Shown: positions 42,195 through 47,102 of the stretch, piece after piece
Position numbering within the stretch: position 1 is the first letter of the stretch
Layout of the letters: every line of letters begins with the position of its first letter
Assembly: GCF_003131205.1 (NCBI RefSeq)
Contig: NZ_QFFY01000006.1
Location: forward strand, 62,001-126,000
Direction of reading: 5' to 3'
Length of the DNA: 64,000 nt
From: Occallatibacter savannae
GTDB lineage: Bacteria > Acidobacteriota > Terriglobia > Terriglobales > Acidobacteriaceae
Made by a program: the position numbers and the translations under genes
Notes under the pieces: generated by a model
Seen by the model: the letters and a program-made list of their open reading frames with translations, nothing else
What the model was told of the DNA's origin: nothing
Databases searched by the model: none

Positions 42195-42231
42195 TTCCCT
42201 GGTCCCCAAGAGCGAGGGACCGGGGGCACCC
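42195..42231. repeat. Palindromic element, GGTCCCC type
   Basis: Stem GGTCCC/GGGACC (42201-42206, 42216-42221) with the tail GGGGGCACCC. Lies between two TAACCGC-type elements. Matches the copy at 59839-59875. Confidence 0.75.
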
Positions 42232-45905: not shown

Positions 45906-47102
45906 TTATTTAGATGCAGAAATTTGCCAGGGATCGAGAAGGAGTGAGGTGAGTACAAGGTCTGTTTGGTGGGAAAGCAGTTCGAAATCTGGGACGAATA
46001 TGGGTTCTGCGAGAGCCTGAAAGGCCGGAATAGAGCTGGAACCGAGGACCTGAGGGGAGATGAAAACCTGGAGGCGGTCGACGAGATTCTCGCTCAGTAA
46101 GGCGGCGTTTAGGTGGGAGCCGGTTTCGGTGAGGACGGTGAGGATGTTTTCGGAACCGAGGTGGTCAAGGACGGCGGTAAGGGAAACTCGGCCGGTGGAG
46201 GACGGAACGGGTTGGACGCGGACGCCTCGGCGGCGGAGTTCAGCAGCGCGCGTGACGTCGGGGCTGGCGGTGAAGATGAGGAGGTCGTCGTTGGCGCTGC
46301 GGACGATTTTCGAGTCGAGTGGAGTGCGGAGCGCCGAATCGAGGATGACGCGGAGAAGCGGGTGGCGACGGGGAAGCCCGCTGCGGTCGGTGAGGAGAGG
46401 GTCGTCGGCCAGGATGGTGCCGACTCCGGTGAGGACGGCGTCGGCTTGATGGCGTAGCTGCTGGACGGCGGCGCGGGATTCTTCGCTTGTGATCCAGAAG
46501 GGTTCGCCGGGAGTGCGGGCCTCGGGCGGCGGGGCGATGCGGCCGTCGAGGGACATGGCGATCTTCATCAGGACGAAGGGGCGCTTGTGCTGGATCCAGC
46601 GGGCGAAAGCTTCGTTGAGGCGGCGGGCTTCGGCTTGGCAGAGGCCGAGGGTGGTCTGAATGCCGGCGGCGGCGAGGGTTTGCATTCCGCGGCCTGCAAC
46701 GGTGGGGTTGGGGTCGGATGTCGCGGCGACGACGCGGGAGATGCCGGCGGCAATGAGGGCCTGGGTGCAGGGGCCGGTGCGGCCGGTGTGATTGCAAGGC
46801 TCGAGGGTAACGTAGGCGGTGGATCCGCGGAGACGTGGCGCATTGTTTCCCACCCATTCGGCAAAACCAGCTGAATGGATGGGGCACCCGGCTGAGTCGG
46901 TGATTCCGGCGGCGTTTCTGATTGCGGCGATTTCGGCGTGGTCGAGGCGGTTGTATTCGTGCCAGCCTTCGCCGATGAGGTTGCCGTTGCTGTCGACGAT
47001 GACGCAGCCGACGGCGGGGTTGGGGGATGCGAGGCCGATGCCGCGACGGGCGAGCGAAAGGGCGTGATGCATCCAGTGGAGGTCTTGCGTACTCGGGATC
47101 AT
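45906..47102 (-). CDS. ribD: Bifunctional RibD with an in-frame inserted repeat
   Basis: Deaminase-reductase that carries out the second and third steps of riboflavin synthesis. The deaminase domain shows GIGLASPNPAVGCVIVD, HAE (His55, zinc ligand), and TLEPCNHTGRTGPC (further ligands). The reductase domain begins near RPFVLMKIAMSLDGRIA. Between HAE and the TLEPC motif are about 15 extra residues (72-87, GCPIHSAGFAEWVGNN) encoded by a palindromic repeat at 46845-46889. Whether the enzyme still works is unknown. The ATG at 47102 follows AGGGAA; the frame extends to 47171. Confidence 0.93.
   Translation of the reverse strand: MIPSTQDLHWMHHALSLARRGIGLASPNPAVGCVIVDSNGNLIGEGWHEYNRLDHAEIAAIRNAAGITDSAGCPIHSAGFAEWVGNNAPRLRGSTAYVTLEPCNHTGRTGPCTQALIAAGISRVVAATSDPNPTVAGRGMQTLAAAGIQTTLGLCQAEARRLNEAFARWIQHKRPFVLMKIAMSLDGRIAPPPEARTPGEPFWITSEESRAAVQQLRHQADAVLTGVGTILADDPLLTDRSGLPRRHPLLRVILDSALRTPLDSKIVRSANDDLLIFTASPDVTRAAELRRRGVRVQPVPSSTGRVSLTAVLDHLGSENILTVLTETGSHLNAALLSENLVDRLQVFISPQVLGSSSIPAFQALAEPIFVPDFELLSHQTDLVLTSLLLDPWQISASK
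46845..46889. repeat. Palindromic element inside ribD
   Basis: CCATTC (46854-46859) pairs with GAATGG (46873-46878); the left flank is TTTCCCACC and the right flank GGGGCACCC. The same flanks bracket other family members between genes. Here the element is read through in frame on the minus strand, giving the extra residues in RibD. Confidence 0.8.

Follow-up and report, generated by a model that had tools for sequence, protein, structure and literature searches.

A dispersed palindromic repeat lies in frame within the ribD gene of Occallatibacter savannae

The single-copy ribD gene of Occallatibacter savannae carries, in frame and within an intact open reading frame, a member of a dispersed family of short palindromes. 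The gene was found in the window, the 64,000-nucleotide stretch of DNA analyzed here (G000:C6:62001-126000, where G000 denotes the species' own genome of 6.28 Mb). Our overall reading, which we consider very probable, is that a repeat from a family found mainly in this genus was inserted into a loop of RibD, having probably been spread by a RAYT transposase, that it was kept through the tolerance of that loop for length change, and that such insertions recurred.

The ribD copy and its repeat family

The features of the window that enter the argument, all on the minus strand, are as follows.

45906..47102, minus strand: ribD, a complete open reading frame of 398 aa from ATG, identified by ORF, structure alignment and profile matches
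46932..46940, minus strand: HAE motif (residues 55-57), which borders the loop on its upstream side
46836..46910, minus strand: extended loop, residues 65-89, not in solved RibD chains
46847..46889, minus strand: REP-like palindrome (GGGTGCCCC-stem-loop-stem-GGGAA) that keeps the ribD reading frame, identified by pattern, fold and score
46794..46805, minus strand: LEPC motif (residues 100-103), which borders the loop on its downstream side
42195..42231, minus strand: family REP, a pattern match not flagged as in frame by codon score
42244..42286, minus strand: family REP with a different stem, a pattern match not flagged as in frame by codon score
59839..59875, minus strand: family REP, a pattern match not flagged as in frame by codon score
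62533..62569, minus strand: family REP, a pattern match not flagged as in frame by codon score
63114..63159, minus strand: family REP, a pattern match not flagged as in frame by codon score

The RibD reading frame was open throughout, exceeded the cut-offs of both Pfam RibD_C and NCBIfam eubact_ribD, and was the sole match in the genome at E <= 1e-15. Within it, the 43-bp palindrome and the next two bases (46845-46846) encode residues 72-86, GCPIHSAGFAEWVGN, counted from the start at 47102. The initial annotation had given the added residues as about 72-87, which is essentially right, and had spoken of a protein-altering repeat, a term that is true in the literal sense that some 15 amino acids are added to the RibD loop. 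As RNA, the segment was predicted to fold into an 11-plus-2-bp hairpin of -21.9 kcal/mol (z -2.89), with two of 200 shuffled sequences as stable. In an alignment with the solved RibD chains 2o7p and 2g6v, which we take to be those of E. coli, residues 65-89 stood opposite only two chain residues. The loop begins beyond the HAE motif, presumably a zinc ligand, and an AF2 model built from four sequences, which was poor overall (mean pLDDT 50.4), placed it between a helix at residues 56-64 and a strand at residues 95-98.

The repeat family to which this segment belongs has the architecture GGGTGCCCC-stem-loop-stem-GGGAA, in which the arms are variable yet complementary. GGGGCACCC occurred seven times in the window, against 0.44 occurrences expected from shuffles. 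Across the genome, the family pattern TTCCC-N14-40-GGGGCACCC had 94 matches and the same pattern reversed, used as a control, had none. A strict hairpin test was passed by 81 of the 94 matches, with lengths of 31-47 bp; among the 13 that failed, several were hairpins with a one-base offset, and chance matches (e.g., L036 and L235) accounted for some. One set of ends was combined with several stem types, and the two arms of the same copy paired at 6.85 of 10 positions on average, versus 3.42 of 10 when arms were swapped between copies (n = 94). In the ribD copy, as in 31 aligned copies, the stem was preceded by GGGTG, bases that the collection pattern itself fixes, and the copies found by peptide likewise had GTG, not GTAG, at the place of the tag. 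The family answers to the definition of REPs as short dispersed palindromes of about 20-40 bp that are present in many copies and are mostly intergenic; it carries GGGTG in place of the unpaired GTAG at one end that characterizes the GTAG super-family.

One copy in the same genome, L155, was identical to the ribD copy at 38 of 40 aligned bases; it started 53 nt past the stop of an ORF whose codon usage is coding-like. Copies in related genomes matched the ribD copy at 40 of 45 nt and, when read in the ribD frame, would encode an almost identical peptide, GCPIHSAxFAEWVGN, in many cases with stop codons nearby. The proposal in the initial annotation that a palindromic repeat lies in frame within ribD is hence borne out by the pattern matches (94 versus 0), the 38/40-nt copy and the intact reading frame.

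Family matches were present in 78 of the 80 genomes of the genus, reaching a maximum of 150 (G119), and several genomes of the genus had only 0-2 (e.g., G017, G024, G029, G067, G070 and G116). In the 59 genomes from outside the genus among the 139 surveyed, there were at most eight matches each (most in G037), the reversed control giving up to five, and single palindromic copies were found in three other genera of the same bacterial family. The repeat family is found mainly in one genus. Three named relatives located via RibD are Acidobacteriaceae/Acidobacteria MAGs.

The 81 hairpin elements were also examined for open frames. In the three sense frames, 66, 60 and 71 elements were open, compared with 56.7, 56.0 and 57.7 for mononucleotide shuffles, and in the antisense frames 59, 71 and 77 were open, compared with 58.4, 59.7 and 60.5. 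Because the antisense frames are open just as much as the sense frames, the family shows no sign of having been shaped for coding.

RibD loops of relatives and repeats in other proteins

RibD was matched at E <= 1e-15 in 75 of the 80 genomes of the genus, and 70 of these sequences were read (those of G067, G101, G105, G075 and G070 being left out). The spacing between HAE and LEPC, which is 45 in O. savannae, was 22-31 in 65 of the 70 and 39-47 in the remaining five. Outside the genus, where loci from 20 of 24 genomes were sampled, it was 22-26 in the 18 that were readable, with two unread. These ranges agree with the earlier statement that a typical RibD needs fewer residues at this place, and the alignment of homologues that had been suggested as a check found most RibDs of the genus, the readable distant RibDs and the solved chains to be without the segment. 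The ribD copy accordingly has the marks of a protein-coding palindromic insertion, lying in frame in a conserved gene, being absent from most homologues, and having dispersed copies elsewhere.

A position-and-pairing score for REPs was run over the RibD loci from 350 nt upstream to 850 nt downstream. Loop scores were 24.5 in O. savannae, 23.0 in G073, 20.0 in G026, 18.0 in G060 and 12.5 in G031, and the highest score outside the loops in the scanned stretches of all 70 loci was 18.5. A supported REP was thus present in the loops of four of the 70 RibDs (G000, G073, G026 and G060). Since the score of the G060 copy is just under the best found elsewhere, that copy owes its support to the exactness of both its ends and not to score alone. 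For G026, the hairpin was only as stable as shuffles, though the sequence score was 20.0. The fifth long loop, that of G031 (L018, spacing 40), is left unclassified, its score being at background level. Its hairpin was no more stable than shuffles, and this loop keeps a PIP-like start.

The three further RibD REPs occupy the same loop, in the same orientation and frame, as that of O. savannae. The insert begins at a common codon after HAE in three of the bearers and seven residues further on in O. savannae, and flanking codons and stems differ among the REP-bearing genes, whose proteins are 62-78% identical. In each case, the nearest RibD is without a REP; for O. savannae, that nearest sequence among the 69 compared is from G001, which is 69% identical and has no insert. 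In the ribD gene of G060 (L157), a piece of another dispersed repeat, of the CCTGAGCGAAGTCGAAGGA type, lies inside the REP, in a nested or chimeric arrangement that is still in frame.

That the insert is tolerated in this loop is what we infer from the 22-31 spacing range together with the low-confidence AF2 model; because the length of the loop varies, the site points to tolerance more than to function.

The initial annotation had described the family as otherwise lying between genes. This stands for most of the family, in that a codon-score scan left 85 of the 94 matches in O. savannae unflagged for a coding frame, and does not stand for nine that were flagged as in frame: ribD, L036, L043, L044, L060, L202, L203, L208 and L212. 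Several of these were set aside as insertions, namely L036, a chance, non-palindromic match; L202 and L212, whose ORFs are shorter than 100 aa; and L043, close to the start of an ORF resembling NuoJ. In the last case (G000:C1:384982), the REP lies just before a plausible start, and apparent REP-coded sequence (LGAPGPG...FVSETWE) is seen at the C-terminus of the same ORF. A search for the same element in other open frames, likewise suggested earlier, was productive: the in-frame hosts in O. savannae are UvrC (L060), RsmI (L208) and a protein containing both CCG and 4Fe-4S domains (L044), to which a protein that matches GDE_C weakly (L203) can probably be added, the hairpin there failing the strict test.

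UvrC was compared in the best 30 of the 80 genomes of the genus (L236-L265). REP scores of at least 19 occurred in linker 1 of eight and in linker 2 of four, and in the rest of the gene in none of the 30. Many members of the genus have differing REP-coded peptides in these linkers, three of them in tandem in G032, and 15 of the 16 UvrC copies scoring 17 or more are read in one frame. For RsmI, the best 30 of 73 loci were sampled and 29 linkers read. Four scored 21.5 or more (L266 of G000, L267 of G001, L269 of G080 and L280 of G027) and a fifth, weaker case scored 18.5 (L268 of G002), with a best score of 16.5 in the preceding parts of the gene. At the same place in RsmI, the REPs of O. savannae and G001 differ by two matched changes per arm (ACATCTC/GAGATGT versus AGGTCTC/GAGACCT). 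Because both arms have changed in register, the comparison of these sequences suggests stem replacement within coding DNA.

Reading frames differ among hosts: the RibD element is read as GCP, the UvrC and RsmI elements mostly as GAP, and the L044 element as VPQ, so that coding REPs outside ribD use frames other than that of ribD. A search of 99 genomes with the ribD-frame peptide turned up long open frames but, among the 33 of the listed matches inspected by eye (36 regions), no clear insertion in a conserved gene; by appearance, without a family search, these matches were upstream of starts, antisense or intergenic.

Separately, a GHDFSRAENA-like peptide recurs in unrelated proteins, namely in L044 and in UvrC linker 2 of G030, G004, G069 (the clearest), G024 and G019. 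Its source is GGGCACGACTTCAG-type sequence, which is also seen beside REPs elsewhere and is probably a second coding repeat.

Number of insertions and alternative explanations

A RibD tree, from which the loop had been omitted, was built by a quick search; it had many weak forks, and the groups evaluated on it were named after the inserts had been seen. It required five changes for the five long-looped sequences and four for the four supported REP bearers. A single clade was rejected both for the four bearers (p = 0.0075) and for the five long-looped sequences with G031 included (p = 0.0276). Holding G073 and G026 together gave a better likelihood and was not rejected (p = 0.68), and the inserts of these two may share one event. 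Because one clade is rejected, yet the G073 and G026 pair is not, the REPs in RibD loops would likely have had at least two origins, and possibly up to four, as judged from the sequences compared.

Among other explanations, we regard as unlikely a single old insertion in the ancestor of the genus, with stems altered later by recombination with other REPs and with precise loss elsewhere. It would account for the loop, orientation and frame that the inserts have in common and for the codon after HAE at which three of them start, and the RsmI insert of O. savannae and G001, with its matched changes in both arms, fits the replacement of stems at a fixed site. However, many precise losses would be required, given that only four of 70 RibDs have a supported REP and that the nearest RibD of each has none, and the rejection of one clade for the four bearers speaks against it as well.

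Retention of the insert for a function, either as an RNA hairpin that slows translation or stabilizes the mRNA, or because the added loop or linker is itself useful, seems quite unlikely. Most relatives have a ribD that manages without the insert, 22 of the 30 UvrC linkers 1 hold no copy scoring 19 or more, and the hairpins in the long RibD loops of G026 and G031 do not exceed shuffles in stability, all of which weighs more with us than the stability of the O. savannae mRNA hairpin and the recurrence of REP peptides, nearly all in one frame, in the same UvrC linkers of many species.

We give little credence to homologous recombination between species having moved segments of ribD together with the insert. 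Such transfer is compatible with a tree made from a single gene, but the differing flanking codons and stems of the bearers, and their protein identity of only 62-78%, count against it. That the segment is a native loop resembling the repeat by chance is exceedingly improbable in view of its exact ends, its hairpin, the near-identical copies elsewhere and the lack of the segment in most relatives.

The reading we prefer, then, is that of repeated insertion. The REP would have entered the loop that joins the HAE helix to the LEPC strand in RibD, and the simplest timing is after the split from G001, the nearest relative read. With the GGGTG strand as the coding strand and a net length that leaves the frame unchanged, the hairpin would be free of stops and translated as a short loop, and it would persist, presumably as a neutral addition, because the loop tolerates length change. 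RibD loops of other lineages would have received REPs as well, and the same process would have supplied the linker peptides of UvrC and RsmI.

Proposed spread and relation to known systems

The O. savannae genome encodes three Y1 transposase domains and has four matches to the model of REP-associated transposases. One of them, at L103 (1312-1866), passes NCBIfam REP_Tyr_transpos with 110.2 bits against a cut-off of 80, and its HUH motif has four family REPs, two per side, no more than about 550 bp away, the arrangement of a RAYT gene flanked by family REPs that defines a REPtron. RAYT matches above the cut-off were found in 69 of the 80 genomes of the genus. Among the 20 best-scoring other RAYT loci of the genus, in three of which the position of the gene was assumed, a family REP lay within 900 bp in five, the rough background for this comparison being two copies in 58 kb. 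As just five of the 20 have a family REP at this distance, not all RAYTs of the genus serve the GGGTG family.

In the sections consulted of work on other TnpA-REP proteins (PMC8266576), a conserved tetranucleotide stands 5′ of the hairpin, the gene of the HUH tyrosine transposase has REPs of its own, and the tag beside the hairpin helps to choose the cut. Our case resembles this, as far as sequence alone can tell, in having a hairpin with a 5′ tag and an HUH transposase gene among REPs; it differs in that the tag is not GTAG and in that stems vary widely within one genome. From the neighborhood of L103 and this work, we infer that RAYT (TnpA-REP, HUH tyrosine) transposases probably spread the family, as single-stranded DNA. 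A further proposal, which we put forward tentatively and on balance doubt, is that RAYT and REP have preferred intragenic landing places (the RibD loop, two UvrC linkers and one RsmI linker) at which palindromes keep being replaced or re-inserted, the mobile hairpin supplying protein linkers again and again across the genus.

REPs within genes have been described by Di Nocera et al. (2013; PMC3733652), who report, in the sections drawn on here, short palindromes that are mostly intergenic with some inside genes, many hosts among DNA repair genes, UvrABCD and recBCD included, and REPs whose sites in recB nearly coincide between two Xanthomonas species, and who propose loops and linkers as REP-tolerant places. 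The tags of the families described there are GTAG or CGTC, in contrast to GGGTG here. In that paper, Acidobacteria are mentioned once, as hosts of TIR-associated transposases, and "UvrABCD" is named but uvrC by itself is not. The Rickettsia RPEs (Ogata et al., via PMC2229807 and PMC3733652) are, according to the passages used, palindromic repeats in frame in conserved protein genes, as is the ribD REP; a guanylate kinase bearing an RPE was tested and was active with a changed affinity for its substrate. RPEs measure 105-146 bp by the account in PMC2229807, compared with about 31-47 bp for the copies here, and RPE-4 and RPE-6, which are shorter, CGTC-tagged REPs with no transposase of their own, differ from a family that is GGGTG-tagged and found beside a RAYT. 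With its 43 bp, its GGGTG tag and its relatives among the Acidobacteria, the ribD REP falls outside the Rickettsia RPEs.

A literature search covering titles and the starts of abstracts, with subscription papers mostly outside its scope, found no coding REPs in Acidobacteria, which is not proof of absence. Judged against the portions of the literature covered, in-frame coding REPs are already known, and what looks like a new variant is the GGGTG tag together with the way the same loops are used repeatedly. The ribD insert is a clear-cut example of non-autonomous mobile DNA made part of an enzyme presumed to be essential, in a loop that was probably hit more than once within a large genus. It permits comparative tests of the coding tolerance of mobile palindromes, of RAYT target preference and of whether useful linkers arise from insertions, and it warns annotators that repeats labeled as extragenic can be translated.

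Two observations concern the orientation of the family as a whole. In the sequence adjoining the 81 hairpin copies of O. savannae, the coding strand is mostly the one that carries GGGTG (75 confident flanks versus 13). On contig C1, the orientation of elements tracks the sign of the local GC skew in 26 of 27 loci, the one exception being the chance match L036.
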